In this document: positions 496 through 25,485 of the stretch, one piece after another
Layout of the letters: the number at the start of each line of letters is the position of its first letter
Numbering within the stretch: the stretch's first letter is position 1
IMG/VR virus record: IMGVR_UViG_3300007963_000037
Location: 1 to 26,142 of that record
From: a virus
Length of the DNA: 26,142 nucleotides
Reading direction: 5' to 3' (one strand)
Translations under genes and position numbers: made by a program
Notes under the pieces: model-generated
Databases searched by the model: none
What the model was told of the DNA's origin: nothing
The model's input: the letters and a program-made list of their open reading frames with translations, nothing else

Positions 496-526
496 GAGTA
501 TCCGATCTCCATAATGTTAAGAAATG

Positions 527-544
527 TCTGAGGGGGTCCTCAGA
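527..544 (-). promoter_or_regulatory. Palindromic element copy E, before the tail fibre gene
   Basis: The minus strand reads TCTGAGGACCCCCTCAGA followed by CATTTC: a perfect 7-bp stem with a 4-base ACCC loop. It lies in the gap between the gp16-like stop (547) and the tail fibre start (495), where T7 has phi17. One of five near-identical copies in the same orientation. It is not followed by a T-run, which argues against a simple intrinsic terminator. A role as phage RNA polymerase promoter or RNA processing site is inferred. Confidence 0.6.
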
Positions 545-546
545 GA

Positions 547-3500
547 TTAGTCATCGTCGTCGTGAAGTTGATCGATGAGGTTGTAGATGCCAACTACGTT
601 TGTCCAAGGACCTAGCTTCAATAACCTTTCCCAGTTAACTTCTCTATCGTTTTGGGGATTAAGAGCGCCGGGAGCTGCTATCAAGTAGTCGAACTTCTGT
701 AAGGTGTCCCAAGAAGGGTTTCCCGTGAAGAAGCCTGTGGCTAACCCTGTGGACCTGCCGTATCTAAAGGCAGGTTCAAATCCTGCAGCTTGTAGACCTG
801 TATCTACCAAGCCGGGAAAGAGTGCAGAGTAGGCAGACCTTTGGAAAGCTGCAGAAGCTATAGCTTCCATTGTCCACTTCCCATCTTCACCGTGCATCTC
901 TTCACCCCAGATAGCATCTGCAGTCATACCCTTGATGCCTGTCTGAGCCATATAGGCCAAGCTTCCCATCAAGGCAGTGGACATGAATGCTGTAAAGGAT
1001 TGAAGGTTTCTTCTATGTACAGCATGTAGCATCTGCTTGGCATGAGCTACTAAGATGAAGGTCCTGAACTGTGTAAGTATCTTACCTATATTGGTGGTCA
1101 TAAACATGCCCATAGAACCTATATCGTTCTCTTGGATGACCCTGTAGGTCCACCTCATAAGGCTATTAGCGAAGTCTTCCCTAAGCTGGGAGGGCCACTG
1201 TTCAACACCAATCTCTTCAACCACACCTCTAGAATTTACTTTAGAGGTTCTTTTTAACTGGTCCCCTATGGCGTCTGCAGTTTCTTTAGATAGCCCAATC
1301 TCTCTAAAGTTCTCGTAGTCAACTTCGTTGAAACCTCTTGTATATCGGTCGTGTATCCTTTGTACTGCTGCTTTAGCGGATGTACGTTGCATCCATATAG
1401 TAATTGGCGTCATACCACTGACAACGCTCGTTACACGCTTCATTCTTTCCATAGCTGATAATGCTTTTTGCTGAAGAGGACTAAATTGTTGACCTAAGAC
1501 CTCTCCAGCGGCACCTGAATACCGTTCTGATACAGTAGCGAACCTGAAAAACTCTGAGCCTACACCGCTGATAGCCTCAAGTTCTCTCATTAATACATCG
1601 TCTTTAATATTACCTGTCTCTAAGTCTCTCTTGAGAGTTCTTAAAGCTGGGACCTGCCTGAACATAGTCTTTAGACCAAAGAAGGTAGCTATATTCCCCA
1701 TCTCTGCGACCTGTGCGAACCCTGACTGACCCATAACACGGTTATAGTTCCATCCAAGCAGCATTCTTGTAGCGAAATTACGTCCTTGATTAGTTTCATC
1801 TTCTCTTAAGGACTTTCCTATGAGGTGCCTGTACATAATGGTCGCACGTTTAATGTCGCTTTCAACACTTGCCTTATCTGCAGGACTCATTAAAGCTGCT
1901 TCAGATTTTATTTCTTCTATTCTGTCATCAAAATCCTTAGTAGACTTGATACCAAGTCTTTGAGCTGCAGCTATACGACCAGACATCTGCCTGAGGTACT
2001 GATCGTATCCCATTACGTTGCTTTCATAGAGGTCTTCCATATTAAATTTATGGGTTTGACCATCTACACCTTTAGCAACAGCTTCAAATGTTTCATCTAC
2101 GTCTGCCCTGAAGGAAACCTCTTTTGTATTACCGGCCTTACTCTTAATTTCCTTTGTTACACCTCGTCCCCTAGCCGAAGTTGATGAACCTTTTGTCTGT
2201 CTACTTTTCAATATCTCTTTAGCTACGGTTAAATCTTCTTCTTTAACTCCTGCAGTCTTTAGATATTTAATTACCTCATCGATGTTCCTTGCAGCCAACC
2301 TTCCGAGATCAATGATTTCTCCATCAGCTACTCTTTGTATGGCTTGAACATAGACCTTTGCTAAGGCTCTAGCCTCCTTAAGTTCCAAGGGAGACTTTGT
2401 TCCCTTCATATAAGCTTGGGCTATAAGTTCTATTGCACCGTCTTCACCGAAGACTCTGTTCCATTCGTCTATCTTTGAATGGATGATCCTACGAGGAACG
2501 TATAGATGATTAAAATCAATGTCTGCAGCTTCCTCCATACCAGAGTCCTTCATCATCTGAAGCATATCTCTAGTGGATTTCCTTTGAGCGTCCCTAGCTT
2601 TCTTTAACGCTGATTTCTGTGCGGAGTTAAGGTCAGGCATAGAGTCAATGAAGTCATCGCCGTCCCTGCGAACAGACCTATCTACTAATGCGTAGAACTG
2701 TTCGTGAACCCTCATGCGTTCGATTGGGTTCTGAACAGTTACCCCAGCTTCTTTTGTGAAAATGTTTCTGGACGCTACGATCTGATTAAAGACCTTCTTT
2801 TGTGACCTGTGTATCTGGGTTCCCAACTCAGTAGCAGAAATCCTTGCTACTTGACCGCTTTTAACATCAGGTAAAACGTCTTGAGCTAGTCCACCGAAGT
2901 ATCCTTTCATCTTTGGACTTTTAGATGTCTTAACCCTAGACATCATATCAAACCGTATAGATAACCTGTTGTCCCATTTGAAATGGTGAACAAAAGGCAT
3001 AGTAACGTAGTTCGACATAGCTGCAGGGGCAGTGTCTAGACCCTCTGGAGACAACGCTGCCTTAGATTTGTCGCTTAGTTTTATTCCTGCTTCATCTGCA
3101 GCGGCTCTCAAAGCGGCATTGCTGTGGTCGTCAGCTACCTTTTTCATAGGTCTATAGGCATATCTGCCAACAGCTCCACCAAGTATCCCAGCGGTGCCTA
3201 CTGCAGCTACAGAGTCTTCCCAGCCCCAAGTTACCTTATCGGATAATACAGCCGCCTCTAGGGCAGCTACTTCTGCCATTGTTAGTGCTCCTATTGCACT
3301 AGCTCTAGCTATGTTTCCCATCTGTGCAGCTTTACCAACAACTGAAACCCCTCCAGTAAAGAAGGCTAATCCAAGGGCTGCAGGGTCTAGGAAGTTAGTT
3401 GCCAAGCGCAGACCTGCACCTCTCCAGCCGTACTCAGCAAGGTCCTGTGTCAACTTTTGTTCTTGCTTAATGTGCTCTACTTCAGAGTCCCACTCAGCTT

Positions 3501-3804
3501 GACTCTTTACACCGTCAAGGGAATCTAGGTGCTCAAAGAGTATCCCGTGGTTCTCATGTGCATCCTTGTACATCTCAGGGGTACGCACAAAGTCAGGGTC
3601 TACAGGATCATCTCCCCCATTCATCCACCTAAAGAGGTTAGCCATAGCCCAATCTTCGTGAGCAATCTCATCTGTTAGGCCCCAAGGCACTTCTTCTTTT
3701 GTGGTGTCTTCTACCACTATAGGAAGGGCTAGGCTTTCAGTAAGTCTTGTTGTTGATTCAGATACAAGGTTATCCTCTGAAGAGGGAAGGTATGTATCTG
3801 TCAT
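547..3804 (-). CDS. Internal virion protein, T7 gp16-like, without transglycosylase domain
   Basis: A 1085-residue protein in the position of T7 gp16, the ejectosome protein that enters the cell envelope first and helps pull in DNA. It is about 230 residues shorter than T7 gp16 (1318). I see no lytic transglycosylase motif at its N-terminus, which is acidic and polar (residues 1-120). Hydrophobic, glycine/alanine-rich stretches near residues 141-157, 168-187 and 197-213 could insert in membrane. A later one (LMGSLAYMAQTGIKG) lies near the C-terminus. The rest is charged and helical, with many K/R/E-rich segments. It ends in four aspartates. The ATG at 3804 overlaps the upstream stop as TGATG, implying coupled translation. 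Assignment rests on gene order, size and character rather than on a catalytic motif. Confidence 0.8.
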   Translation of the reverse strand: MTDTYLPSSEDNLVSESTTRLTESLALPIVVEDTTKEEVPWGLTDEIAHEDWAMANLFRWMNGGDDPVDPDFVRTPEMYKDAHENHGILFEHLDSLDGVKSQAEWDSEVEHIKQEQKLTQDLAEYGWRGAGLRLATNFLDPAALGLAFFTGGVSVVGKAAQMGNIARASAIGALTMAEVAALEAAVLSDKVTWGWEDSVAAVGTAGILGGAVGRYAYRPMKKVADDHSNAALRAAADEAGIKLSDKSKAALSPEGLDTAPAAMSNYVTMPFVHHFKWDNRLSIRFDMMSRVKTSKSPKMKGYFGGLAQDVLPDVKSGQVARISATELGTQIHRSQKKVFNQIVASRNIFTKEAGVTVQNPIERMRVHEQFYALVDRSVRRDGDDFIDSMPDLNSAQKSALKKARDAQRKSTRDMLQMMKDSGMEEAADIDFNHLYVPRRIIHSKIDEWNRVFGEDGAIELIAQAYMKGTKSPLELKEARALAKVYVQAIQRVADGEIIDLGRLAARNIDEVIKYLKTAGVKEEDLTVAKEILKSRQTKGSSTSARGRGVTKEIKSKAGNTKEVSFRADVDETFEAVAKGVDGQTHKFNMEDLYESNVMGYDQYLRQMSGRIAAAQRLGIKSTKDFDDRIEEIKSEAALMSPADKASVESDIKRATIMYRHLIGKSLREDETNQGRNFATRMLLGWNYNRVMGQSGFAQVAEMGNIATFFGLKTMFRQVPALRTLKRDLETGNIKDDVLMRELEAISGVGSEFFRFATVSERYSGAAGEVLGQQFSPLQQKALSAMERMKRVTSVVSGMTPITIWMQRTSAKAAVQRIHDRYTRGFNEVDYENFREIGLSKETADAIGDQLKRTSKVNSRGVVEEIGVEQWPSQLREDFANSLMRWTYRVIQENDIGSMGMFMTTNIGKILTQFRTFILVAHAKQMLHAVHRRNLQSFTAFMSTALMGSLAYMAQTGIKGMTADAIWGEEMHGEDGKWTMEAIASAAFQRSAYSALFPGLVDTGLQAAGFEPAFRYGRSTGLATGFFTGNPSWDTLQKFDYLIAAPGALNPQNDREVNWERLLKLGPWTNVVGIYNLIDQLHDDDD

Positions 3805-5963
3805 CAGTTAGATTCAGCCCTTGTCTTGTAGTACCACTTAGCCACACCTTGCGTTGAAAACGTCACAATGGGAGTTCCTTCTAGAACCCTAGGAAATGAA
3901 GACTGAGTAACCACCATATATTCATTACTTGTTCCGAGGTTACCTGTATTCACCGGTGATAAGGTTATATCGGCTGCTTTTATACCATTATCTTCAGCTA
4001 TTTTATTCAACACTGCATCTAGATTATCTGCAGCAGCGTCTGCGTATGCTGGATTCCTGAAAGGTGATGCGTGACCGACGCGCACTATCCTGTCTCCAAC
4101 TCCTACATAATTATGCCTAAGGTGCTTTTTGATATGATCTACTACAGCAGTTTCGTTAGCAACGTCGTGGTTTATGACACGCGCCAACATTTCAACCTCT
4201 GCTGACATTGCGAACCTCGCAGCTTTAGTCATATCTGTATCACCTATAGCTTGAATACCTTTAAGTGAAAGGCCAATCTTTCTAACATCAGTGTAATCTA
4301 ACCCTCTAAATATTGACTTTACCTGCTTTTCACTAAGGCGCTTACCTGTCCTGAAGCTTCCATCAGCAGCTTGTGTAAGAGTTTGCATGGTTTTTATGGT
4401 ATCAAGATATCCTTTAACTTCCCCTCCCTGTGCATATACTTCCGGCTTATCACCAAATCGAGTGGACCGTAGAACACTGTAGTTATCCATAAAGGTTCTG
4501 TTGTAAGATCTAGGTTTGAAATAAAGGTCTTTAGCTCTCCCGCTTAGTGCTGAATACCATTGGTAAAGGTTTTCAACATCAGAAACTAAAGAGTTCTGTA
4601 TGTCCTTATCGCTGCTCAACATCCTGTCCCTCAGGTTTGCTGAGTGGTTACGAATTGTATCAACAAGATAATTGAGTTGGGCTGGGTGATTTTCTGCAGC
4701 ATCCGCCAAAGCAGATTTGAATTGAATCTTATTATTCTTATATTTTTCTCGAAGATCGTTGGTGATTAAATCACCTGCGTTGTCAATATGTTTTCTCAAT
4801 CTCTCTGGGATAGGGATTTTATTCTCAATAAGCCGTTTTGTAGCAGCTATATCTTGGTTCTTTTGGTATGCAGATTCAAATGTCGCTATGTCTTTAAGTA
4901 GAGATTCTGATCGTGCTTTAACTTGTGGTCCTTTGGAACCATCTGATCTATAGGTGGAACTACTATCAAGTACAGGGGAAGGTATACCTTTCTCAGGAGA
5001 CTCCATAACAATCTTCTTAATAGCCTTAATATATGCAAGGCTATCCTGTTCAGAGTATGCACCGGATTGCACCTTAAGCATAAGACCCTCAAGTATGTTG
5101 AGCCTCATACTCTTAATGCTTGAAGAACCTAGTCCTACGTTGCTCTGGTATTGCTTGAGGAAAGTGTTAAGGGAAGAGCTGATGTTGTTAAAGGCGTGAT
5201 CCACAAGTTTCTTTGATGTCTGTCCTTTGATAGCAACATCAGGTTCGTTGTTGTCAGGGAAAGTTTTTACTATCTTTATTTCGTTCTTTTGAAAATTCAG
5301 AGTATCAGAGATAAACTCAAGCCCGTTAGCAACACCTGTGTTTACCTTCTCGGTGGTAAGTCTGGTATCGTATGCGGCTCTAAACTCTTTCCTAAATGCC
5401 TCTCTCCAGATTCTCATACGTTCATCAGCCCCTAGCTGCATCTTGTAGTTATGCTCACCGTACTGTTCTCTGAACCTGTCTGTTACGGTAGCCGTTTGAG
5501 CATCTAGATTAATCTTTGCTACATCTTCCCAAGGACCATTCTTCAAAGTGTCTAGCAGTTGATCAGTTACCTTCTTAGCTTCAGTATCTGCAAAGCTACT
5601 CCATGCCCTACTACCAAAAGCGTAATTGAAACTGTCGTAGTGCATCTGAGTTTTTAGTTCAGGATACTTTCCAGCCTTAAAATCTGATTGTATTTGATCG
5701 TAGCTCTGTCCTTCAGCCAGCTTCTGATCTATTAGTTTCTGGGCAGATAGATCAGCTTCAGTCATCCAACCTTTCTTATTGTTCTCTTTGTATGCCTTAA
5801 GCTTTGTATTGATGCTGCTTAAAGCATCTGCCAAATTACCCGCTGTAGTCTGTGTTGTCTTAGATAGATTAGGTACGGCAATACTGACATTCTTTGCTCG
5901 TACAGGGTTAACGGATTTTGCACCGGATATCTGTATCCTGTCTAACGCTTGTTTATAAGACAT
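3804..5963 (-). CDS. Internal virion protein, T7 gp15-like
   Basis: A 719-residue protein (T7 gp15 is 747) between the gp14-like and gp16-like genes, the T7 order for the three ejectosome proteins. It is largely soluble, helical and rich in K, D, N and Q, with no clear membrane segment or signal peptide. In T7, gp15 forms the channel across the periplasm with gp16. An open frame extends upstream to a GTG at 5978, but I prefer the ATG at 5963 (MSYKQALDRIQ), because it forms a TAATG overlap with the preceding stop, the same coupling used by neighbouring genes. A GGGTGG lies about 11 bases upstream. No catalytic motif was recognised. The family call comes mainly from position and length. Confidence 0.78.
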   Translation of the reverse strand: MSYKQALDRIQISGAKSVNPVRAKNVSIAVPNLSKTTQTTAGNLADALSSINTKLKAYKENNKKGWMTEADLSAQKLIDQKLAEGQSYDQIQSDFKAGKYPELKTQMHYDSFNYAFGSRAWSSFADTEAKKVTDQLLDTLKNGPWEDVAKINLDAQTATVTDRFREQYGEHNYKMQLGADERMRIWREAFRKEFRAAYDTRLTTEKVNTGVANGLEFISDTLNFQKNEIKIVKTFPDNNEPDVAIKGQTSKKLVDHAFNNISSSLNTFLKQYQSNVGLGSSSIKSMRLNILEGLMLKVQSGAYSEQDSLAYIKAIKKIVMESPEKGIPSPVLDSSSTYRSDGSKGPQVKARSESLLKDIATFESAYQKNQDIAATKRLIENKIPIPERLRKHIDNAGDLITNDLREKYKNNKIQFKSALADAAENHPAQLNYLVDTIRNHSANLRDRMLSSDKDIQNSLVSDVENLYQWYSALSGRAKDLYFKPRSYNRTFMDNYSVLRSTRFGDKPEVYAQGGEVKGYLDTIKTMQTLTQAADGSFRTGKRLSEKQVKSIFRGLDYTDVRKIGLSLKGIQAIGDTDMTKAARFAMSAEVEMLARVINHDVANETAVVDHIKKHLRHNYVGVGDRIVRVGHASPFRNPAYADAAADNLDAVLNKIAEDNGIKAADITLSPVNTGNLGTSNEYMVVTQSSFPRVLEGTPIVTFSTQGVAKWYYKTRAESN

Positions 5964-6550
5964 TACGGAAACTGCCACCCCCCATAACCCGATTTAAATT
6001 TGCCACTAGGGTCCTTCAAGTACTTCCTAGTACCGTCTTGCATATAATCAGTTCCTGCCCCTACAACCTTGGCGATTGGCGTCAGGAAACCTTGACTGAA
6101 TATAGGTGCAAAGGATGCATTCTTAGCTTTGTAATTGAGATAAGAAGCGTCTGCTTGTCTATCCAGAGTTCTGTAGATGTTAGCTACATCACCTGTCCTA
6201 CGTGTTCTGGCTGTAGCAGATTGGAGCATAATGTCTCCAAACAGGTCATCAGGACTGCTTCCCACCATTCCAAACTGACCAAGTCCCACCTCACCAAAAT
6301 GTACCTTAGACTTACCTACAGCCTGTGCTCCTTCGATTGCTTCATCCATGTTCATTTGAGCGGCTTGTTGTTTAGTTTCATCTTTCTGATCATTTATAGA
6401 CGCAAGGTTCATTTGGTAGTTTTCATACGCAATCTGATCCATCCTGCGTTGACGGTTGGCTTCCGCTTTGGCTTGTTGTTGCGAGTCAACATAGCTGGCA
6501 CCTGCAGAAACAATGCTCATTACAAGTGTCGCTTCAGCAATGCCACACAT
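5963..6550 (-). CDS. Internal virion protein, T7 gp14-like
   Basis: 195 residues, almost the length of T7 gp14 (196). It begins MCGIAEATLVMSIVSAGASY, matching the MC start and short hydrophobic N-terminus of T7 gp14, followed by an A/Q-rich helix (YVDSQQQAKAEANRQRRMDQ) as in that family. T7 gp14 forms the outer-membrane pore of the ejectosome. The frame can be read from a GTG three codons upstream. The ATG at 6550 is preferred because AAGGAG lies 8 bases before it, it overlaps the previous stop as TGATG, and T7 gp14 also starts MC. The C-terminal part is glycine/aromatic rich (KSGYGGWQFP). Confidence 0.82.
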   Translation of the reverse strand: MCGIAEATLVMSIVSAGASYVDSQQQAKAEANRQRRMDQIAYENYQMNLASINDQKDETKQQAAQMNMDEAIEGAQAVGKSKVHFGEVGLGQFGMVGSSPDDLFGDIMLQSATARTRRTGDVANIYRTLDRQADASYLNYKAKNASFAPIFSQGFLTPIAKVVGAGTDYMQDGTRKYLKDPSGKFKSGYGGWQFP

Positions 6551-7041
6551 CACGCGCACTCCTTAATAAAGAGGTAAAAGTCTTCACCGTTAAAACCATA
6601 TTTGTATTTGTTTACGATATTGAAACCGCACAGTTGCAACCACTTCTGTGATTGCCAGTGGGGTACATGCACAAAGTTGTAAAGTGCTTCATAGTCTTTG
6701 GATAAATGTTTGATCCAACCAACGCTATGTCTGATAAACTTTCTTGATACCTCAGAGATATCATCCGTACCGATAAGCCAAGGTACACCGAAGTTGGTTA
6801 CGTGGTGACAATTAGATACACCCCATAACGATATAATCTTCTTGTTATATACCAGAGCATAGGTTTCTTTTGACTGCTCTATGCATGACTGTAGGTGCTC
6901 TTGAGTAGTCTTGTGAGGACCCATCATTGCAGCTATTTCTATTACATCACTTACTCTTATGTTAGGCGTGATAGTTTCTACATCACCTTCTTCGCAAGGT
7001 CTTACATAGAGATCGATGTCTTCAACAGATAATCTAGGCAT
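6550..7041 (-). CDS. GNAT-like protein at the T7 gp13 position
   Basis: 163 residues between the tail tubular protein B gene and the gp14-like gene, the place of T7 gene 13. It has the layout of a small acetyltransferase-like (GNAT) fold: an N-terminal strand with a D/E-rich turn (LYVRPCEEGDVETI), a helix with IAAMMGPHKT, a central strand pair (YALVYNKKIISLWGVSN), and a C-terminal N.VH..HWQSQKWLQLCGF segment followed by a short strand (DFYLFIKECA). The last resembles the helix-strand end of phage GNAT-like proteins. Many marine T7-like phages carry a protein of this type here, and T7 gp13 is needed for virion assembly. No acetyl-CoA loop (Q/RxxGxG/A) is evident, so enzymatic activity is doubtful. 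The ATG lies one base after the gp12-like stop. Confidence 0.6.
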   Translation of the reverse strand: MPRLSVEDIDLYVRPCEEGDVETITPNIRVSDVIEIAAMMGPHKTTQEHLQSCIEQSKETYALVYNKKIISLWGVSNCHHVTNFGVPWLIGTDDISEVSRKFIRHSVGWIKHLSKDYEALYNFVHVPHWQSQKWLQLCGFNIVNKYKYGFNGEDFYLFIKECA

Positions 7042-7042
7042 A

Positions 7043-9118
7043 CTACATACGCCTACTATGCACAGAATAGTTTGCTTCCCACTCAGCCTGTATAAACTGT
7101 GCAGGTAGGTAGGAAGACGACTTAAGATCGACGGTTACCTGAGTGTTCCTAGCGATAACAGGGAAGCTAAACGATCCACTTTCTAGGGCTACCCTGTCAG
7201 GCTTTGCAGTAGGTAGGTTAACCCTCATAGAGGTAAACTCGTATGTCTTTAGATCACGACCTGTAGGGTTAACCTCTACATTAAAGAACCCTGTGTCCCT
7301 GTAGGTTACCTTCCAACGCCTCATCTGTAGTCTTCCGGTAGCTACAGCCATCTTCTCTCCAACAGACGTAGCAACGCCAGTACCCTCTCTCATGTACTGT
7401 GTGGAGAACCTGTAGTTCATCTCGTATTCAAGACCCAGTAGGCATGTTGATCCGCTATGGTCGCCTGTAGCTGCCACAGTAGTGGTGGTAGGTCTTGTAG
7501 CTGTTATCGATGTACCTTTGTCGTCTGCCGTACCTGACCTTACGACAACTACAGGAGTCCCTGTGGGTACAGCGTAGGGCAGTGTCCAGGTTGTAGTGTT
7601 AGTACCGGAGACATAGGAGCCTGTTAGGTTAACCTTGCGGTCTAATCTGGCACAAAAGTCTAAGTTAGTGTCATCTGGGACTAGGTAGTCCATGACCTCT
7701 AGATAAACACCATCGCTTCTAGATATTATGAAGAAGGTGTTATTCTCTACAGTCTCTATCCACAGGATAGTATCCTCTGAGCTGAACTGAAAGAATGACC
7801 AAGCACTTTGGTTCTTCTCTTGCCCTGCCCAGTTGTATTTATAGCAATATATTCTGGACGGTTGATTAGACGAAAGGAAGTAGAGAACATCCTCAGATGT
7901 AGATGCTGTTCCTTTGGATACATTCTTTGGTACAAACTGAGGGACATGAGCTGTTATATCTGCAGCATCGTGAGTGTCTAGGTCTGTAGCAACATAGAGT
8001 TCTCTAAGCCTAGAGAAGTCTCCACTGATCTGAGAGAAGTAAACATTAACACCTGCACCAACAGGTGGCATCTTAACATCCATCTCAAAGTCTGATGCAG
8101 GATTGATGGATATAGAACTTGCTGTTAAAGCTCCACTGCTTTCCACAAAGAACTGAGACTGTTCAGAGAACAGCAAGAGTTGTTCGTTGAATGGGATTGC
8201 ATATTCAACCTTAGATACCTTGGTGTGTGTAACATCTACGTCTATAGGATCAGAGTCTACAAGTGTGGTCACAGTAGTCCTGAAGAAGTTTTCATATTCT
8301 CCAGACTCTGAAAAGACAATCTTCTCATCTGCAGTTACGCCGAACCTGTTCTTGTAGAAGAACAACGAGGATATCTTCTTACCTATAAAGCCCGGTTCCT
8401 CATTAGTATCATCGTCACCAACTAACCTATTAGTCCATGTGATCGTATTGAAGGTGAAGTTAGCACCACTCTGTGTGATCTCATGGGGCAGTGTGGTCTT
8501 GTCGATCTCTATAAGGTTGTTGGGGGCTACAGTCTCTTCATAAACAGTACCAGCTTTCTTCTCTACCCAGAATGCCGCGAACTTATCTTCATTGTCCCCT
8601 AGGATTTTAAAGATGGCACCTGTAGAAGCACTGGTTTCAAGGTCTGAGAACTTCTGATTCTCTGTAAAAGTTACGTCAGGTGACCTAGTAGTAGCCATAG
8701 CTGTAGTAGTGTTCTTATTCAGTACATACGTCCGATTAAGAACGGTAAGGAACATTAGGTCTTCTCTGGGGTTAGAGCACACTAGGTACTGTAGGGTCAC
8801 ACTGTTGGTTACAGTGGACTCTGCACCAGTGATAGCGTTAAAGACCTTAAGGCTAGTTCCTGAAAGCGTGTTGTTACTCTGTACAATGATAATGTATCTA
8901 GAGCCTATGCCTCTATCGATCAGGTGACAGGCAGCATTGCTGGAAGAGTTCGTTAAGAGCTTCGCTGTGTGCTCTGTGGGAGGCCTCTTGTTTAAACCAT
9001 CTACCAAAGAACTCTGAGCGTTTACCTGAACAGCTCCTTGATAGACCCTTCTGACCTCATCAGGTTGTTGGCTTATGCCTTGAACCATATAGGGGATAGA
9101 GTCAGATACTAGAGTCAT
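7043..9118 (-). CDS. Tail tubular protein B (T7 gp12-like nozzle)
   Basis: 691 residues (T7 gp12 is 794). The N-terminus reads SDSIPYMVQGISQQPDEVRR, then VNAQSSLVDGLNKRPPTEHT, which are hallmark motifs of T7 tail tubular protein B. This protein makes the nozzle below the gp11 ring through which DNA leaves the particle. The body is beta-rich with many T/S/V strands, including IGKKISSLFFYKNRFGVTAD and ESGEYENFFRTTVTTLVDSD, typical of the family. The gene starts with ATG directly after the TAA of the gp11-like gene, so translation is probably coupled. Confidence 0.93.
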   Translation of the reverse strand: MTLVSDSIPYMVQGISQQPDEVRRVYQGAVQVNAQSSLVDGLNKRPPTEHTAKLLTNSSSNAACHLIDRGIGSRYIIIVQSNNTLSGTSLKVFNAITGAESTVTNSVTLQYLVCSNPREDLMFLTVLNRTYVLNKNTTTAMATTRSPDVTFTENQKFSDLETSASTGAIFKILGDNEDKFAAFWVEKKAGTVYEETVAPNNLIEIDKTTLPHEITQSGANFTFNTITWTNRLVGDDDTNEEPGFIGKKISSLFFYKNRFGVTADEKIVFSESGEYENFFRTTVTTLVDSDPIDVDVTHTKVSKVEYAIPFNEQLLLFSEQSQFFVESSGALTASSISINPASDFEMDVKMPPVGAGVNVYFSQISGDFSRLRELYVATDLDTHDAADITAHVPQFVPKNVSKGTASTSEDVLYFLSSNQPSRIYCYKYNWAGQEKNQSAWSFFQFSSEDTILWIETVENNTFFIISRSDGVYLEVMDYLVPDDTNLDFCARLDRKVNLTGSYVSGTNTTTWTLPYAVPTGTPVVVVRSGTADDKGTSITATRPTTTTVAATGDHSGSTCLLGLEYEMNYRFSTQYMREGTGVATSVGEKMAVATGRLQMRRWKVTYRDTGFFNVEVNPTGRDLKTYEFTSMRVNLPTAKPDRVALESGSFSFPVIARNTQVTVDLKSSSYLPAQFIQAEWEANYSVHSRRM

Positions 9119-9730: not shown

Positions 9731-9749
9731 TCTCGCTCCTTAACTAAAT

Positions 9750-9783: not shown

Positions 9784-9798
9784 GTATTAGACTACACC

Positions 9799-10755: not shown

Positions 10756-10785
10756 AGTTAATTACCTCATAGTTTGTTGCGAAAG

Positions 10786-10803
10786 TCTGAGGGGGTCCTC
10801 AGA
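10786..10803 (-). promoter_or_regulatory. Palindromic element copy D, before the capsid gene
   Basis: The minus strand reads TCTGAGGACCCCCTCAGA, then CTTTCG instead of the CATT that follows the other four copies. The 18-base core is identical to copies A and E. It lies in the 120-base gap between scaffold and capsid, 30 bases before the capsid ATG, where T7 has its strongest promoter phi10. It is interpreted as a candidate promoter for the phage polymerase. A 5' mRNA stabiliser or RNase III-type site is the alternative. Confidence 0.62.
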
Positions 10804-10875
10804 CATTTGGTGTATGCCTTCTTCTTTAATAGACAAGATTATCCGACGTATCGGGTCAGGTTATTTTCGAGATGG

Positions 10876-11782: not shown

Positions 11783-11791
11783 TAAGTATCC

Positions 11792-16420: not shown

Positions 16421-16423
16421 TCC

Positions 16424-16624
16424 TTAATACTCCTTTAGAATGTTTTTGATGTATCCAATGTTTTCCTCAAGAGAGGTGAGCTTATTAATCAGCTCATTCT
16501 TATCGCTCGTCTTGACTGTCCTGCTTCTATAGACATCCACCATTACTGAAGCGAAGGTAGGTTTGATGTCGTCTAAAGAAGATACGGTATCCTCAAACAT
16601 GTGAGCTATTTGGAAGCTTCTCAT
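16424..16624 (-). CDS. Small hypothetical protein
   Basis: 66 residues (MRSFQIAHMFEDTVSSLDDI to IGYIKNILKEY). The ATG overlaps the stop of the DUF3310 gene as ATGA, with GAGGA 6 bases upstream. The second half (DKNELINKLTSLEENIGYIK) could form a short coiled coil. Its own 3' end carries the AAAGGAG used by the reductase start. No family recognised. It lies among nucleotide-metabolism genes. Confidence 0.7.
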   Translation of the reverse strand: MRSFQIAHMFEDTVSSLDDIKPTFASVMVDVYRSRTVKTSDKNELINKLTSLEENIGYIKNILKEY

Positions 16625-16926
16625 AATAAATCCTCACCTTTGATATGGTTGATCCGCATCTCCGCGTACCTTCGTATCTTCTCTAGGTCTTCAATCTCAG
16701 ATTCCCAATCCTGAAGACCATTACGATGTTTGTATCCAGCTCTCATCGCATACTTGATTATGTTACCTCGCCAGAACTCCACATCATTCTCCAAGATGAA
16801 CGTGATAGGCTGTACTTTCCATCGTGAGTAGTGAGCTGGATTATCAATGTCTGAGGGGTCCTCAGGGATATCTTCTTCATCGAACAGTTTAGGGTCTTTC
16901 ATCATCAAGGTGTGGGGGGTTGCCAT
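16621..16926 (-). CDS. DUF3310 family protein
   Basis: 101 residues with the DUF3310 signature: NPAHYSRWKVQPITFI (29-44), then FWRGNIIKYAMRAGYK (51-66) and a closing helix with DWESEIEDLEKIRRYAEMRI. These short phage proteins are often found with DNA-metabolism genes, but their biochemical role is not established. The ATG at 16926 has GAGGA 7 bases upstream and overlaps the exonuclease gene by 22 bases. Residues 21-27 (PEDPSDI) are encoded by palindromic element copy C, and the same peptide occurs at the primase-helicase C-terminus, where another copy lies. Confidence 0.82.
   Translation of the reverse strand: MATPHTLMMKDPKLFDEEDIPEDPSDIDNPAHYSRWKVQPITFILENDVEFWRGNIIKYAMRAGYKHRNGLQDWESEIEDLEKIRRYAEMRINHIKGEDLL
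16850..16866 (-). promoter_or_regulatory. Palindromic element copy C, inside the DUF3310 gene
   Basis: The minus strand reads CCTGAGGACCCCTCAGA followed by CATTGA. It is one C shorter than the intergenic copies and its first base is C instead of T, leaving a 6-bp stem with a 3-base loop. It is read as P-E-D-P-S-D-I in the DUF3310 frame. It lies just after the exonuclease gene, close to where T7 has phi6.5. Candidate phage promoter by analogy with the other copies. Confidence 0.5.
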
Positions 16927-17654
16927 AGGTTTATCCTCATGCCGGGGTAGTTCTCATACCTGAGAATGTGTGCGAGTTGAGCGTTATCTATTGCATCAGA
17001 TGTTTCTAAACCTGCCTTGTGATAGGCCTCTACAACTCTTGACCACATCCACTCATTAGTAGGCTCAGTACCTGATGGAGGTGTTAACAACCTTTCAGCT
17101 TTAACAGGTCCAATGCCGGGGCAACCTTTGTAATTATCAGTCGCGTCACCAGTTAAAGATTGTGTCATATGCCATTGATCACATTCTTCAATACACCGGT
17201 GGATGAGTGAACCGTCAATAAAATGGTAACCGGGTATCTGAAGAAGGTCCTTGTCAGGTGACACGATGATGCAGTTGTTTATCATCTTCTTTTGGGTAGC
17301 TAGGATACCTATGACATCATCAGCTTCTAGCTTGGGCCAAACTATTGCGTCGTACTCCTCTTCAAGGAAGTCCCTTATTCCGCTTAACGCTAATGGCTTT
17401 CGCTTGTTTGCCCTGTTCGCTTTGTACTCAGAACAAATTTCTTTCCTGAAGTTGTCACGGTCTGTCAGAGCTATGATTATATCAGAAGCCTCATGTACCT
17501 CTTCCAAAAGCCAGTTTAGATAGTTGTCTATTTCTGCAGTACACTCGTTGACATCTGAGTGCAGAGTCCAAAGACCTTCTTCCCATTCAATCGCGTGTTC
17601 AAAACTCATAGCAGTTCGATATGCTACGATATCTCCATCAACTAACAGCTTCAC
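16905..17654 (-). CDS. 5'-3' exonuclease (T7 gp6-like)
   Basis: 249 residues (T7 gp6 is 300) of the flap-endonuclease/5'-exonuclease superfamily. Metal-binding motifs are in order: LLVDGDIVAYR (D6, D8), LTDRDNFRK (about 63-71), EYKANR, LEADDVIG (E110, D112, D113), SPDKDLLQIPG (D134, D136), and LTGDATDNYKGCPGIGPVKA (D170, D173), the last being the helix-hairpin-helix clamp. In T7 the enzyme degrades host DNA and removes RNA primers. The start is GTG directly after the upstream TAA, with AAGGAG 6 bases before it lying inside the 3' end of the homing endonuclease gene, so that insertion has left the exonuclease expression signal intact. Confidence 0.92.
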   Translation of the reverse strand: MKLLVDGDIVAYRTAMSFEHAIEWEEGLWTLHSDVNECTAEIDNYLNWLLEEVHEASDIIIALTDRDNFRKEICSEYKANRANKRKPLALSGIRDFLEEEYDAIVWPKLEADDVIGILATQKKMINNCIIVSPDKDLLQIPGYHFIDGSLIHRCIEECDQWHMTQSLTGDATDNYKGCPGIGPVKAERLLTPPSGTEPTNEWMWSRVVEAYHKAGLETSDAIDNAQLAHILRYENYPGMRINLWQPPTP

Positions 17655-18134
17655 TTAACTCTCCTTCACTAGGTGTGTGTAGTCGGTTCTCTTCTCGTCT
17701 TTCAGATAACTGATGAGAACCTCATTCCTTTCATCCTCACCCTTCTTTACTCCAAGGATGGCTATAGCTTGGGTTTGTTTCTCTTTGAGGTAAGGTATCA
17801 ACTCGACTGCAAGATCAATAGCTTCTTGATTAGCTATTAACCATGTCCATGTCTGTCTTGCGTTACCTTTACTCTTTGCGTGGTCGTATATTTTACCACC
17901 ATACGAATCACGTATGCGGCACATCAGGTCATAGTTTGCACTGTTGATGCGTATGTGAGGCTGTGCTTTTCCGTAGTACTGGAAGCATCCCTCTCCATCT
18001 ACATACCCAGCCAACCACTCTAGGCTAATGTGTTTCTGACCAATCCGTTCCGACTTTATATTCAGCGTCGAGGGGCATTCTAATTCCGAAGTATGTTCCT
18101 GCCCGTCGAACAGACTGCACTGCGATTTCTCCAA
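17655..18134 (-). CDS. LAGLIDADG-type homing endonuclease overlapping the DNA polymerase gene end
   Basis: 159 residues with a single motif, SLEWLAGYVDGEGCF (about 37-51), matching the LAGxxDGEG form of the LAGLIDADG nucleases; such single-motif enzymes act as homodimers. Following segments (PHIRINSANYDLMCRIRDSY, then YLKEKQTQAIAIL) fit the alpha-beta DNA-binding saddle. The likely start is TTG at 18134, with AGGAG 6 bases upstream. This places the first 36 residues in another frame over the last 110 bases of the polymerase gene, while the nuclease core begins right at the polymerase stop. The polymerase C-terminus is intact, so this is a free-standing gene rather than an intein or a disrupting intron. 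No such gene exists here in T7. The start is less certain than the family. Confidence 0.8.
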   Translation of the reverse strand: MEKSQCSLFDGQEHTSELECPSTLNIKSERIGQKHISLEWLAGYVDGEGCFQYYGKAQPHIRINSANYDLMCRIRDSYGGKIYDHAKSKGNARQTWTWLIANQEAIDLAVELIPYLKEKQTQAIAILGVKKGEDERNEVLISYLKDEKRTDYTHLVKES

Positions 18135-19764
18135 ATGTCTCTCCTAATTCTTTGTCACACTCCCACTGCACCTCATCATGTACCCATGCCACTTGACGGC
18201 ATCGATCACTCAGTCCACGGGAATTAACTTCATCTTGAATTTCAACTAGCCACCTCTTGCAGATCACTGCACCTGCAGACTGAACCAATAGGTTCACACT
18301 GCTATGAGGTGAACGGACACGCAGCTTCCTGCCGTCGAGTCCACGTAAATATCCTGCTTGAGTAGCCTTAGAGGTCACGCCTCCAATCAGCTTGTTCAAA
18401 GCTGGCAGCTCTTTCAGGAATTTCTTCTTTAGTGAGGCACCTACACGCTTGTTACCACCGGCTATCTGACCGAGCTTCTCTGCACCTGCAGAATAAATCA
18501 GCGCATAGATGAATGTTTTCGCCTGATCCCTGTCACTAAGACCAGCCTTGTTCTGATTGTAGGTATGTATGTCACCATCAAGGATGGCTCTGGCGTACTC
18601 GCCACCATCCATAGGGTGCATGTAGTGAGCCAATACCCTTAGCTCTAAGCCTGAAATGTCAGAGCCTACGAGTACCTTGCCCTTACCGACAGTGAACAGC
18701 TCACGGCACTGCTTGCCATACGGCACCCTAACGCTAGGGACCTGAGCCATGTTAGGTTTCACATGGGTAGCCCTACCGCTGACAGCGCCATTACAGATAA
18801 CCCTGCCGTGTATCCTGTCTCCCTTAGCAGCATTAAGCCAAGCTCTCCTGCCTTCACCTAACGCTGCTATACGCTTCTGCAGAAGGAAGTATCTAGCTAA
18901 GAGCTTTGCTTCTTTGTAAGGCAGTCCAACAAGGACAGTCTCATCGATCTTAGGTTGACCCTTGTCAGTGTGCTTCTTAGGCTTCCATTGATACTTGTGC
19001 TGCAGCCTATTCGCTATGTGATGCCTACTGTTAGGGTTGAAGGTTACAGTATGACTCTTCTGTGTCAGCTCACCCTTAACGTAGCCATACTTAGAGTTGC
19101 TTGCCTTAGGTAGAAAGGGAGTAAGCACCTCATATGGCGGGAACAATTCCTGAAAGGTTTCTTCCAGCTTATCCCTGCGCTTAACAAGATCACTAAGAAG
19201 TTCCCATGCTTTATCACTATCGAACTTGAACCCATACATCTCCTGACTTCTGCAGATATCATGTATGCGGTGCTCTAGCTCTATGGAGTCATGGCTGAAC
19301 CCCTCTTCGATCAGCTTCTCGTACAGCGTTAAGGTGACCTCAACATCTTGCTGTGCGTACTTAAGCATCTCGTCAGTGAGAGTATGCCAAGGGCCTTCAA
19401 AGTCTCCCTTGTGGTTACCTAGCCGCATACCCCATGCCTTAAGGCTATGGGAACCTATGAGTCTGGTGGGGAAGTCTTCCCTCTCAAAGTCCTGTGACTT
19501 TACATCAGGCCAAACTAGACGAGACATGACCAGTGTATCTCTGATGATACCCTCAGGTTTGAACTTAGGTTCAAGCCTTTGAATAAAAGGTATGTCGAAG
19601 TCTATGATGTTGTGACCTACTAGGACATCAGCTTTCTCCAGAAGAGGCAGAGCCTCTCTCCAGTTGTCTGTCCAAGTGTATCTCTTGGCATGTTGATCGA
19701 TGGCAGTGATGCAGTGAATTACATCACCAACCAATCCATTTGTTTCTATATCGAAGACTATCAA
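18025..19764 (-). CDS. DNA polymerase, family A (T7 gp5-like)
   Basis: 579 residues (T7 gp5 is 704). The proofreading exonuclease is complete: VFDIETNG (D5, E7), VGHNIIDFD (about 49-57) and YAQQDVEV (D140). Polymerase motifs: GSDISGLELRVLAH (motif A, D369), RDQAKTFIYALIYSAGAEKL (motif B, K416 and Y420, equivalent to T7 Y526), and WVHDEVQWE (motif C, H529-E531). Between exonuclease and motif A, the thumb insertion that binds thioredoxin in T7 is much shorter (about 207-240). The C-terminus GTDWSETH aligns with the T7 GPNWAICH end, so the protein is whole. The start is TTG, overlapping the previous stop, with GGGAG 8 bases upstream. Confidence 0.96.
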   Translation of the reverse strand: MIVFDIETNGLVGDVIHCITAIDQHAKRYTWTDNWREALPLLEKADVLVGHNIIDFDIPFIQRLEPKFKPEGIIRDTLVMSRLVWPDVKSQDFEREDFPTRLIGSHSLKAWGMRLGNHKGDFEGPWHTLTDEMLKYAQQDVEVTLTLYEKLIEEGFSHDSIELEHRIHDICRSQEMYGFKFDSDKAWELLSDLVKRRDKLEETFQELFPPYEVLTPFLPKASNSKYGYVKGELTQKSHTVTFNPNSRHHIANRLQHKYQWKPKKHTDKGQPKIDETVLVGLPYKEAKLLARYFLLQKRIAALGEGRRAWLNAAKGDRIHGRVICNGAVSGRATHVKPNMAQVPSVRVPYGKQCRELFTVGKGKVLVGSDISGLELRVLAHYMHPMDGGEYARAILDGDIHTYNQNKAGLSDRDQAKTFIYALIYSAGAEKLGQIAGGNKRVGASLKKKFLKELPALNKLIGGVTSKATQAGYLRGLDGRKLRVRSPHSSVNLLVQSAGAVICKRWLVEIQDEVNSRGLSDRCRQVAWVHDEVQWECDKELGETFGEIAVQSVRRAGTYFGIRMPLDAEYKVGTDWSETH

Positions 19765-19973
19765 TGAAGTGTCTCCCTCAGCACAGTCACCAGTTCTGCT
19801 TCAGGGATTACGTCAGCTACCTCTTCGGTCACTTCGTTGACAAGGTCCTCCATATCATCTGTCAACACTTTGATCGCAACAGGACGCTTGGTGATGGTGG
19901 CTTGATAGATCGCAGCAAAGATAGTTATCAAAGCATCAGCTACGTCATCAGGCATCTCCTTCTCAGTAGTCAT
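19761..19973 (-). CDS. Small hypothetical acidic protein between helicase and polymerase genes
   Basis: 70 residues from the ATG at 19973 (MTTEKEMPDDVADALITIFA), chosen because AGGAGG lies 6 bases upstream; the frame is open further upstream without a comparable signal. The product is acidic and helical, with a hydrophobic face (VADALITIFAAIYQATI) and an E/D/V-rich second half (MEDLVNEVTEEVADVI). It starts inside the 3' end of the primase-helicase gene and its stop overlaps the polymerase TTG start. The place corresponds to the T7 gene 4.x small genes, but no family is recognised. Confidence 0.7.
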   Translation of the reverse strand: MTTEKEMPDDVADALITIFAAIYQATITKRPVAIKVLTDDMEDLVNEVTEEVADVIPEAELVTVLRETLH

Positions 19974-21582
19974 TGAGTACCTCCTCAATGTCTGAGGGGT
20001 CCTCAGAGAAATACTCCTCAAGCTTGGTAGTCTCTGGATCGAAGCGGAGAGTACAGGCTACACCAGTGTCACCACTGAACCTGTTCTTGAGCACCCTGAT
20101 GGTAGACACATGACGCTCGTCACCATTGAGGTCACGCTCTATGCCGATGCAAAGGTCTGATAGTTGAGCTATTGAATGGCTACCCCTGAGGGCATTCAGG
20201 CTTAACTCAATACCGTTCTCGTACCCCTTGTTACCATCAGGTCTACGCAGGTGAGACACTAGGATAAGACCAATGTTGCACTCCTCGACCAGCGACCTAA
20301 GAGCGGTCATGGTGGCATCGATGGTGCGCCTCTCGTCACCCTCTGCTAACGCGGATGACATGATTGTCAGGTGATCTAAGACAACCCAGTGTACGTCTAA
20401 GGCCTTAGCCATGAACCGTATCCTGTTGATGAGGTTGTCACTGTCGATTGATCCGAAGTGATCGTAGCAATACAGACCTTCAAGCTTGTCATAAGCTACT
20501 GTCCGCTCTGCTTGCTCGTCGTCAGACAGCTCACTCCAATCTCTAGTGTCTAGATGGATAGCCTTGCCCAACTTGAGAGACATCATGCCCTCTGCAGTGC
20601 GCTGCACTGACTCCTCAAGGGCTATGTATCCAACCTTCTCACCTCTTGTGAGTAGCTCATCAGCTATCTGTCTACAGACCTGGGACTTACCGACGCCCGA
20701 TCCTGCACACCATGTCACCAGCTCTCCTCGCCTCATTCCGTAGGTCTTATCGTTCAGACCTTGAAAGGGATAAGGAAGAGACGACTTGTTCTTCGGTCGC
20801 TTGATGTACTGAAGCAGATCAGAGTGATCTACTATGCCGTCAGGGTGGTAGACCTTAGCTGACCATATAGCATCGGTCAGCTCTCTAGCCCTACCAGACA
20901 CCAGCATATCGCTAGGGTCCTTAAGCGGTAGGGTTACAATGTGTGCCTTACCGGGAGAAAACAGTTTCGCTATCTCCCTTGAATATTTTTTACCGGGAAC
21001 ATCCTGATCTAGGCAGATGTTCACGCGGTCAAACTTCTCCAGCCAATCAAGTGACTTCTTTACAGACTTGATAGAGCTAGTCACTCCATGACTGACACTA
21101 ACGACAGGCCACTTGTTGTCTTGAGTCTGAGATATACTCAGACAATCTAGCTCACCCTCACACAGGGTGATCATCTTACCACCATCACGCCATAGCCATT
21201 GACCATATAGACCTACGTCTTTGCTATTCCCCTTCCAATTAAACTTCTTATCTGGGGTGCGTATCTTCTGTGCTATCAGGTTCTTCTGCTCGTCGTAGTA
21301 GTTTGCAACCTGAACAGTCTTATCTCCATCTTTAGCTACACCGTAGCCAAAGTGAGAAGTGGTAGCTTGTGTCAGCTTTCGCTTAGGTATCGCCTTACTA
21401 ACTGTCTGCAATAATCTCTCTCCTTCTTTTGGTTGATCGTCTGATCCATGCTCATAGTGCTCACAGCCAAAACAAAAACCGTGACCATCACTGTAACGGG
21501 CGAGGTTATCTCGACTGCCACAGGCTGGACACGGTTCATGTCGGAGGAACTCTGAGTCACTAAGATTTATATCTAGTGACAT
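19963..21582 (-). CDS. Primase-helicase (T7 gp4-like)
   Basis: 539 residues (T7 gp4A is 566). N-terminal zinc finger C18-x2-C21...C37-x2-C40 (PCPACGS, GHGFCFGC) for primer-site recognition. TOPRIM primase core with LCEGELDCLS (E142) and CLDQDVPGK (D192, D194). C-terminal ring helicase with Walker A AGSGVGKS (293-300), Walker B VHWVVLDHL (D403), ILVSHLRRP (H444) and RFSGDTG with the likely arginine finger (R501). The C-terminus is acidic (SEDPSDIEEVLNDY), as in T7 where it contacts DNA polymerase. Part of this tail is encoded by palindromic element copy B. GAGGAG is just before the ATG, which lies 23 bases inside the amidase gene. Confidence 0.96.
   Translation of the reverse strand: MSLDINLSDSEFLRHEPCPACGSRDNLARYSDGHGFCFGCEHYEHGSDDQPKEGERLLQTVSKAIPKRKLTQATTSHFGYGVAKDGDKTVQVANYYDEQKNLIAQKIRTPDKKFNWKGNSKDVGLYGQWLWRDGGKMITLCEGELDCLSISQTQDNKWPVVSVSHGVTSSIKSVKKSLDWLEKFDRVNICLDQDVPGKKYSREIAKLFSPGKAHIVTLPLKDPSDMLVSGRARELTDAIWSAKVYHPDGIVDHSDLLQYIKRPKNKSSLPYPFQGLNDKTYGMRRGELVTWCAGSGVGKSQVCRQIADELLTRGEKVGYIALEESVQRTAEGMMSLKLGKAIHLDTRDWSELSDDEQAERTVAYDKLEGLYCYDHFGSIDSDNLINRIRFMAKALDVHWVVLDHLTIMSSALAEGDERRTIDATMTALRSLVEECNIGLILVSHLRRPDGNKGYENGIELSLNALRGSHSIAQLSDLCIGIERDLNGDERHVSTIRVLKNRFSGDTGVACTLRFDPETTKLEEYFSEDPSDIEEVLNDY
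19991..20007 (-). promoter_or_regulatory. Palindromic element copy B, at the 3' end of the primase-helicase gene
   Basis: The minus strand reads TCTGAGGACCCCTCAGA followed by CATTGAGGAGG. It has a perfect 7-bp stem with a 3-base loop, one C shorter than the intergenic copies. It encodes S-E-D-P-S-D-I in the gp4-like acidic tail and lies 18 bases before the small-gene ATG at 19973. The position is like the T7 phi4c/4.3/4.7 group. Candidate promoter for the DNA polymerase transcript. Confidence 0.55.
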
Positions 21583-21994
21583 TCTCCTCTCTCCATTTGG
21601 TTACATCGAAGGATGGACACGCTTTGTTGGATACCTCGTTGTGTCCTATTACCTCAGCTTCTGGATATGTTTTACACAGCTCATTGACAAGGTTGGCTAA
21701 TGCCCACCACTGGCTATCCGTGAAGTTGTTCTCAGGTTTCATGCCTTCATCGACACCACCTGCTAAACAAACCCCAACGCTTGTTTTGTTTTTACCGTAA
21801 GCATGAGCACCTATCTCTTCGACGGCTCTGCCCGGTTCAACAACACCATTACGTTGGATAAAGAAATGGTAGCCTATCGTCCTGAACCCCCTCTGAATGT
21901 GTATCTTCTTTATCCACTCAGCATCGACATCCATAGATGGCTTGGTTGCTGCACAGTGGATCACTATTAACTCTGTGTTCTGTCTTTCATTCAT
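21560..21994 (-). CDS. N-acetylmuramoyl-L-alanine amidase (T7 gp3.5-like lysozyme)
   Basis: 144 residues (T7 gp3.5 is 151) of the Amidase_2 family. The zinc ligands and catalytic residues of T7 lysozyme are all present at a constant offset of four: H13 (VIHCAAT), Y42 (GYHFFI), H118 (VIGHNEV), K124 and C126 (NKACPSFD). It cuts the amide bond between muramic acid and the peptide and so helps lysis. In T7 it also binds and inhibits the phage RNA polymerase through its N-terminal arm. That arm is shorter and less basic here, so inhibition cannot be assumed. The ATG overlaps the endonuclease stop as ATGA, with AAAAGG just upstream. Confidence 0.94.
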   Translation of the reverse strand: MNERQNTELIVIHCAATKPSMDVDAEWIKKIHIQRGFRTIGYHFFIQRNGVVEPGRAVEEIGAHAYGKNKTSVGVCLAGGVDEGMKPENNFTDSQWWALANLVNELCKTYPEAEVIGHNEVSNKACPSFDVTKWREENVTRYKS

Positions 21995-22449
21995 CCTTTT
22001 AGTAACTCTTCCAGACCACTAAGGTCTGCATACTTAAAACCATGCCGCTCACACCACATTCCATATGTGGTCTGCGACTTCTTACTTATCTTTTGTCGTG
22101 GATTACTGAACAGAAAGCGGATATCTAATCCGCCTTCATCAGGGTGACCATAATGTTTTCTGATATTTAGGTGCTTGACTCTATCTGCAGAGTCGAACCT
22201 ACCTTTGACTTCGATGATAATATTTCCGACAACAAAGTCTGGTAGATACCTGTGAACCTTTGCTGGCTTTAGATATTTAATCCAGTCTGGTTCAAAGTTG
22301 AAGGTGACACCAAGGTTACCAAGTCTTGATGCCACCTTCTCTTCAAGCCCCGAACGAAAGGGCAAGCTTGTTATATCAGAAGTCCCCTTCTTCCTCAAGT
22401 TCCTCAGGGACTTCGGCCTCTTCTTCCATCGACGGTTCTTCGTCCTCAT
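21991..22449 (-). CDS. Endonuclease I, Holliday-junction resolvase (T7 gp3-like)
   Basis: 152 residues from the ATG at 22449 (T7 gp3 is 149). The core FRSGLEEKVASRLGNLGVTF matches T7 FRSGLEDK. Catalytic residues of the T7 enzyme are conserved: E36 (SGLEEK), D71 (YLPDF), E80 and K82 (IIEVKG). The C-terminal TTYGMWCERHGFKYADLSG is also typical. It resolves branched DNA and breaks down host DNA. The start is uncertain: the N-terminal 30 residues are strongly basic (RTKNRRWKKRPKSLRNLRKK) and overlap in another frame the acidic tail of the SSB gene. A TTG at 22479 and later TTG codons near the SSB stop are alternatives. The family is certain, the N-terminus is not. Confidence 0.88.
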   Translation of the reverse strand: MRTKNRRWKKRPKSLRNLRKKGTSDITSLPFRSGLEEKVASRLGNLGVTFNFEPDWIKYLKPAKVHRYLPDFVVGNIIIEVKGRFDSADRVKHLNIRKHYGHPDEGGLDIRFLFSNPRQKISKKSQTTYGMWCERHGFKYADLSGLEELLKG

Positions 22450-22972
22450 GGACGTAGCCGTCTTCCTCGTCAAATCCAAATCCTTCTGCTGTTCCGCTGC
22501 TTCCCTGAACTAAGTCTATGACCTGCACTGCATTCAGTCGCATGGATAGACCAGCACCTATTGGTGCCTCATAGGGTGCTAACGCTGTGTTTACTTTGAT
22601 CTTACTTCCTGCCCAGACTTCCACATCTGTCAGTGGTTTTCCCTTACTGTCGAACACAGGGATACGTGGCTTAAACTTTTGTTTGGATTTGAACCTGAAC
22701 TCGACGTTCCCTGTGGGATCGCCTTCGTCATCCACCTCCTCTCCATATGGTCGAACAGCTTCTTTGATCTTCTTCTTACCTTGGGCCTTCAGCCCCTTGT
22801 AGAAAGTATCAAGCTCCTTTTCTATTTTGTTTATAACAGGTGTAGCAGTGTCTTGATCTAAGACAAGAGTAACCTTGAACTCTCCATCACTATTGAACTT
22901 TGTGTCTGCTTTGCTTATCCAAGCCCACTTAGCTACACCTGCAGGTGTTGTCATAGTTGTATGCTTATTCAA
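22376..22972 (-). CDS. Single-stranded DNA-binding protein (T7 gp2.5-like)
   Basis: 198 residues (T7 gp2.5 is 232) directly after the RNA polymerase gene, as in the marine T7-like order. The body carries an OB-fold-like pattern (GVAKWAWISKADTKFNSDGE, FKVTLVLDQDTATPVI, GNVEFRFKSKQKFKPRIPVF). The last 30 residues are almost all acidic and end in phenylalanine (EEAEVPEELEEEGDF). This is the hallmark of gp2.5, whose tail binds the polymerase and helicase and competes with DNA. The start is TTG at 22972, with AGGAGAG about 7 bases upstream. The in-frame ATG at 22954 is too far from that site. Confidence 0.9.
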   Translation of the reverse strand: MNKHTTMTTPAGVAKWAWISKADTKFNSDGEFKVTLVLDQDTATPVINKIEKELDTFYKGLKAQGKKKIKEAVRPYGEEVDDEGDPTGNVEFRFKSKQKFKPRIPVFDSKGKPLTDVEVWAGSKIKVNTALAPYEAPIGAGLSMRLNAVQVIDLVQGSSGTAEGFGFDEEDGYVHEDEEPSMEEEAEVPEELEEEGDF

Positions 22973-22990
22973 TTCTATTCTCTCCTAATG

Positions 22991-23008
22991 TCTGAGGGGG
23001 TCCTCAGA
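22991..23008 (-). promoter_or_regulatory. Palindromic element copy A, between RNA polymerase and SSB genes
   Basis: The minus strand reads TCTGAGGACCCCCTCAGA followed by CATTAGGAGAG, so the SSB ribosome site begins directly after the shared CATT. The core is identical to copies D and E. It lies 4 bases after the RNA polymerase stop, where T7 phi2.5 precedes gene 2.5. Candidate phage promoter. Hairpin termination of the polymerase transcript is possible but lacks a T-run. Confidence 0.62.
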
Positions 23009-23012
23009 CTTT

Positions 23013-25463: not shown

Positions 25464-25485
25464 AGTGTGGTCCTTCCAATGTCGG

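Follow-up and report, generated by a model that had tools for sequence, protein, structure and literature searches.

Temperate T7-like phages were recognised only recently, and how their self-sufficient RNA polymerase is silenced is an open question. Here we describe the palindromes of a 26,142-base virus record (IMG/VR record IMGVR_UViG_3300007963_000037, the whole of which is referred to below as the window), whose T7-like phage genes are read on the minus strand. Among the described systems closest to these elements are two kinds. Promoters of T7, Syn5 and LUZ100 are of similar size, about 17–25 bp, with several nearly identical copies in each genome, ahead of SSB, structural and tail genes; they are directional with a defined start, whereas the palindromes show no directional information and have a variable centre. 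The LUZ100 promoter, ATTACCACACAG, is annotated from mapped starts (PMC10134795). Mycobacteriophage stoperators likewise are many near-identical short sites spread across the genome of a temperate phage, some between genes and some inside them, and have been proposed as transcription stops; they are asymmetric (PMC9283540) and read by a monomeric immunity repressor, whereas the palindromes are dyad-symmetric. No published description of such palindromes was found in the literature searched, most subscription journals lying outside its reach. The reading that we tentatively favour, at somewhat less than an even chance, is that they form a stoperator-like operator network for a putative dimeric regulator.

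Architecture of the palindromes

An earlier note on the window had described five copies of a 17–18 base palindrome at positions 22991, 19991, 16850, 10786 and 527. All five are present there on the minus (coding) strand, the copy at 16850 beginning CCTGAGG, and none of 300 first-order Markov versions of the window gave a match to the pattern. As also claimed, CATT follows four of the five, the copy at 10786 having CTTT instead. About a dozen distinct sites are known once overlapping and closely related contigs are added. The palindrome is real, recurrent and non-random, but its given length was too short. An alignment of 23 sites, drawn from the window and the near-identical contigs L011, L040, L006 and L048, the 86–89% relatives L086 and L036, contig L025, and the ~75% relative (L030, L050 + L053), gave the consensus AAWGTCTGAGG-N3/4-CCTCAGACWTT, in which information is alike in both arms, stays high up to 11 bp from the spacer on each side, and is near zero outside.

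The centre of the element is far less constrained. Spacers of ACCC, ACC, ACCT, GGT, AGT, TGT and GTG were seen, and homologous sites differ in the spacer's sequence, in its length (3 or 4) and in its orientation; upstream of SSB, for example, the window has ACCC, L086 has AGT and L050 has GGT. The claim that the copies always lie in the orientation of transcription means little for a palindrome whose sole asymmetric part, the spacer, reads ACC(C) in the window and GGT at homologous sites of the ~75% relative. No left–right asymmetry was found by permutation (p 0.28 and 0.56), and neither directional information nor a conserved initiation base was detected in the 20 sites of lineages A and B; lineage C gave a weak hint of orientation (p 0.06). 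The sites accordingly lack the directionality and conserved initiation region of a single-subunit RNA polymerase promoter, and they have the dyad symmetry and independently conserved half-sites of a dimer-bound operator. They also depart from the asymmetric, singly oriented, monomer-read form of stoperators, being symmetric and varying in orientation.

Copies that lie within reading frames are informative about what is being selected. In the window the three intergenic copies have spacers of 4 nt and the two in-frame copies spacers of 3 nt, and with L040 included the division is complete (four of four intergenic sites with four bases, four of four in-frame sites with three), as would be expected if the reading frame forbids an extra base. 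At the end of the primase gene the encoded peptide changes between relatives (SEDPSDI, SEESSDI, SEGSLDM) while the arms stay; selection therefore acts on the nucleic acid.

A weaker sixth palindrome, TCTGAG-TATAT-CTCAGA, lies within the primase gene of the window and of L040 and is absent as a site from more distant relatives; it is possibly due to chance. Other database matches to the 14-base core pattern mostly look like chance as well and were set aside as unrelated. In contig L025 two palindromes stand in tandem, 28 bp apart, near the genome end.

DNA site or RNA hairpin

It is conceivable that the element works in the transcript, as a hairpin serving as a processing site, stabiliser or terminator, and the stems of the window lineage do fold at a predicted −9 to −14 kcal/mol. 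Among the sites of the window lineages, however, 209 of the 253 positions compared match between the arms, where random reassignment of arms among sites predicts 210.5, and mismatches that would give G-U or A-C in a transcript are equally common (7 and 7, with 30 of other kinds). With no excess of matching, the arms vary independently and neither an RNA nor a cruciform hairpin appears to be selected. Predicted energies range from −14 to −3 kcal/mol across lineages, those of lineage K being only −3 to −8, and scans of the window against Rfam and for tRNAs gave no match. As previously noted, none of the five window copies is followed by a terminator T-run. Lacking covariation, and with weak hairpins in lineage K, the RNA explanation was rejected and must be considered very improbable. 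Judged from the aligned copies, each arm is conserved as a half-site, and we take the element to be a pair of half-sites recognised in double-stranded DNA.

Palindromes of other lineages and their stations

Related genomes, in which the earlier note had proposed looking for the motif at syntenic places, carry palindromes with different arms, several of them at matching stations. Contigs whose RNA polymerases are 44–50% identical to that of the window carry recurrent palindromes of their own: CTAAAG-N3-CTTTAG in lineage K (contigs L147/L212; five copies), CCGAAG-N4-CTTCGG in C and D (five and six copies), and GTTCAC-TGA-GTGAAC in F (two copies). At 62% polymerase identity, in L050, the arms of the window are retained. 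Dyad symmetry thus persists in four lineages though the arm sequences differ.

The stations are likewise shared. A palindrome lies 3–24 bp after the end of the RNA polymerase gene and 29–56 bp before SSB in A, B, C, D, K and F; at the boundary of the primase and DNA polymerase genes in A, B and K; roughly 430 bp upstream of portal in C, D and K; 47–53 bp before the capsid gene in the window, C and D; 6 bp after an internal virion protein gene, before the tail fibre, in the window, C and D; in the early region in A, B, K and F; and near the genome end in D and L025. A recurrent motif therefore stands at T7-like promoter stations, namely SSB, portal (in relatives), capsid, tail fibre and genome end. 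The parallel with T7 that had been drawn from the window survives for the copies before SSB, capsid and tail fibre, which are kept across lineages. The 19991 and 16850 copies sit within reading frames, at the 3′ end of primase/helicase and near the start of the DUF3310 gene. The absence of a copy from the early gap is true of the 652 bases in the window and reflects the limit of the window rather than of the phage, since upstream of the polymerase gene three further copies occur in L040, a 99%-identical contig extending beyond the window's early end, and four in the relative L053.

Such genome-wide placement at gene-block boundaries, with several copies just upstream of ribosome-binding sites and syntenic in four lineages, speaks against the palindromes being sites of replication, recombination or packaging rather than of transcription. 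That explanation would draw on the tandem pair of L025, near the genome end and beside other short tandem repeats, and is regarded as highly unlikely.

Operators or promoters

A more serious alternative, less probable than operators in our judgement, is that the phage's single-subunit RNA polymerase itself binds the palindromes as promoters, unusual in their dyad symmetry, and starts transcription just downstream, possibly in both directions. In favour are the stations before SSB, portal, capsid and tail fibre and at the genome end; promoters of CRP-125, CRP-113 and RHEph01 lie at the pre-portal one. Exact k-mer and junction-seeded searches found the palindrome to be the only recurrent motif in A, B, C/D and K, and the same searches recovered the promoters of LUZ100, RHEph01 (likely promoter TTACCCCTCCCTTA), CRP-125/113 (likely promoter TTAGGTTGCACCATAG) and Dev-CD-23823. 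They recovered none in several AT-rich pelagiphages or in BB8, so the absence of another motif is not conclusive. The arms also change with the polymerase, differing at 44–50% identity and not at 62%, while the recognition helix of a MarR-like regulator stays nearly unchanged; in lineage K a sequence like motif1 (see below) precedes the palindrome, as motif1 precedes the LUZ100 promoter; and the orientation hint in lineage C points the same way.

Against promoters stand the A and B sites themselves, with their free, flipping spacers and no conserved initiation base, as well as seven or so early copies in A and B and copies at the primase/polymerase boundary, where sister phages have no promoters. 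Other polymerase promoters examined, known or inferred, lack dyad symmetry. An analogy with the promoter of cyanophage Syn5, suggested earlier, proved weak, because that promoter (ATTGGGCACCCGTAA, PMC6834552) has no dyad symmetry. The promoter of Cronobacter phage Dev-CD-23823, AATGTATACCCCTATATACAC, is active in vitro and has inverted repeats (PMC12272871), in its case around a C-rich centre as in the palindromes, but the repeat is not in all copies, nor in related phages. Its absence from the recurrent motifs of GAP227, PP2, fHe-Yen3-01, phiAS7, VpaP_G1 and MA13 led to the rejection of Dev-CD-23823 as a precedent. The suggestion of an undescribed promoter class thus retains a recurrent DNA element at gene-block boundaries that changes with the polymerase, but it is strained by the lack of directionality and of a conserved initiation base and by the many early-region copies. 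Were the sites such promoters, a marine T7-like clade might use direction-neutral, dyad-symmetric promoters whose arms co-evolve with polymerase specificity, one palindrome per lineage at the same stations, a possibility that we rate as doubtful. A symmetric polymerase promoter would break the directional rule for promoters of this kind.

Several features favour operators instead. Conservation of the arms is equal and sharply bounded around a free centre, the arms are independent, directional information is lacking, and the spacer can be inverted from one homologous site to another; four lineages preserve the symmetry although their arms differ. A polymerase on a truly symmetric site would start both ways, which was also counted toward operators. 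The tandem pair of L025 adds to this, as do the integrase and MarR-like regulator genes and the early copies, one of them at the 3′ end of the regulator gene. Finally, a palindrome lies at +3 to +10 from the polymerase stop in A, B, C, D and F, a station that matches scattered non-promoter motifs directly after the polymerase gene in LUZ100 (+4), RHEph01 (+8) and CRP-113 (+3), where promoters lie further on, at +20 to +55 (about 55 bp in LUZ100 and RHEph01).

Under the operator reading, a homodimeric regulator of a temperate T7-like phage would bind two-fold symmetric sites on double-stranded DNA spread genome-wide. By occupying sites among the early genes, where the polymerase gene ends, and ahead of the SSB, capsid and tail-fibre genes, the dimer would block initiation or elongation, with an effect comparable to that of mycobacteriophage stoperators, and could thereby hold off the lytic programme in a prophage or set its timing in an infected cell. 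The sequences themselves show the recurrence, symmetry, independent half-sites, conserved stations, lineage-specific arms and temperate gene set; the dimeric nature of the reader and its repressing action are inferred. If true, such dimer operators, distributed over the whole genome, would give temperate T7-like phages a concrete means of silencing.

Several observations weigh against operators. They would leave the polymerase promoters of the clade without any motif found, and in C, D and K the palindrome before portal stands where CRP-125, CRP-113 and RHEph01 have promoters. Spacers of 3 or 4 bp in one genome are unusual for a rigid dimer. No related prophages turned up in two scans of bacterial genomes, and no cognate dimeric reader was pinned down among the MarR-like and ribbon-helix-helix-like candidates. 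The palindromes have the look of sites bound by a regulatory protein, and the choice between paired-regulator switches and unusual promoters cannot be fully made from sequence; our ranking of the two is a weighed judgement, not a calculation. Whichever applies, the distinct palindromes and their polymerases are ready pairs for testing orthogonal recognition.

The early region and candidate readers

Upstream of the polymerase gene, L040 and L053 each have genes for a tyrosine integrase and for a winged-helix regulator; the latter belongs to PHROG 9665, as does the MarR-like regulator of LUZ100, and its gene overlaps a palindrome at the 3′ end in both contigs. Given this gene set, the marine T7-like phage of the window can probably lie dormant in its host. 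No host promoters overlapping the early palindrome copies were recognised above chance. Between the integrase and polymerase genes, a stretch looks like a tRNA gene's 5′ half (GCGATGGCCGAGTGGTTAGGCAGTGGATTGCAAATCC, with a GCA anticodon-like loop), although ARAGORN made no tRNA call there; it is likely the attP core used to integrate into a tRNA-Cys gene.

The MarR-like regulator is unlikely to read the palindromes: its recognition helix SQAS[IV]SRNCAALG is essentially unchanged in L040, L053 and L147 though the arms differ, and phages with this regulator family have a different motif. A fast-diverging small early protein has a predicted strand-helix-helix order in a low-confidence model, and it would be only a guess that this ribbon-helix-helix-like protein reads the palindromes. 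The model has a pLDDT of 67 and gave no significant fold match, and the candidates share 14–19% identity with one another.

The different motif, motif1 (AACTATCCACnnnGCATAG), is scattered in LUZ100 (our contig L134), RHEph01 and contigs H and I, and tracks the MarR-like regulator family, of which it is a candidate operator on this distribution. In LUZ100 it sits within the mapped host promoters P1 and P2, as expected of an operator. Like the palindromes, motif1 occurs immediately downstream of the polymerase stop, where the primase and polymerase genes meet, and among the early genes of these phages; unlike them, it is merely pseudo-palindromic, mostly in one orientation, and unrelated in sequence. 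Several lineages have motif1-like sites, separate from the palindromes, upstream of the polymerase gene. The match is weak in the window, whereas in L040 its position weight matrix (PWM) score is 14.5 against shuffled maxima of 9.6–11.1.

Table 1. Positions of the palindromes and of other features (window coordinates unless another genome is named).
Feature	Position	Strand	Remarks
Palindrome 1	22987..23012	−	In the gap from RNA polymerase to SSB gene; spacer ACCC; homologous in L040, L086, L050; other arms in C, D, K, F
Palindrome 2	19987..20011	−	Inside primase/helicase gene 3′ end (SEDPSDI); spacer ACC; kept in L086, L050 despite peptide change
Palindrome 3	16846..16870	−	Inside DUF3310 gene 5′ part (PEDPSDI); spacer ACC; kept in L050 with spacer TGT
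Palindrome 4	10782..10807	−	47 bp before capsid gene; spacer ACCC; homologous in L036, L030; same place, other arms in C, D
Palindrome 5	523..548	−	Directly after internal virion protein gene, before tail-fibre gene; spacer ACCC; homologous in L030; same place, other arms in C, D
Weaker sixth palindrome	21126..21142	−	Possibly chance
RNA polymerase gene (single-subunit)	23013..25490	−	PHROG 414, E 3e-209; 34% to HTVC031P; candidate reader if the sites are promoters
Weak motif1 match	25551..25570	−	Upstream of polymerase gene; PWM 14.4 against shuffled maxima of 13.8–15.1 in window
tRNA-like stretch	about 25573–25614	−	L040, about 4170–4215
Motif1-like sites, LUZ100	374, 575, 3937, 3993, 6687, 6963, 11567, 22148		
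Motif1-like sites, RHEph01	713, 7744, 14713, 24677		

Gene content and minor observations

On its minus strand the window encodes RNA polymerase, SSB, endonuclease, amidase, primase/helicase, DNA polymerase, exonuclease, DUF3310, ribonucleotide reductase, portal, capsid, tail and internal virion proteins. Among named phages, the closest polymerases are those of Pelagibacter phages, at about 34–35% identity. A segment of about 240 bp (25787–26029), comprising most of a 101-aa open reading frame (ORF; 25737–26042), is present in the window and missing from the otherwise 99% identical L040, marking an early-region insertion or deletion between sister strains. In L025, a short array of CTTAAGGACTC-type repeats follows the terminase gene at 2910–2966, near the palindrome pair, and resembles the short repeat arrays near the ends of the T7 genome.

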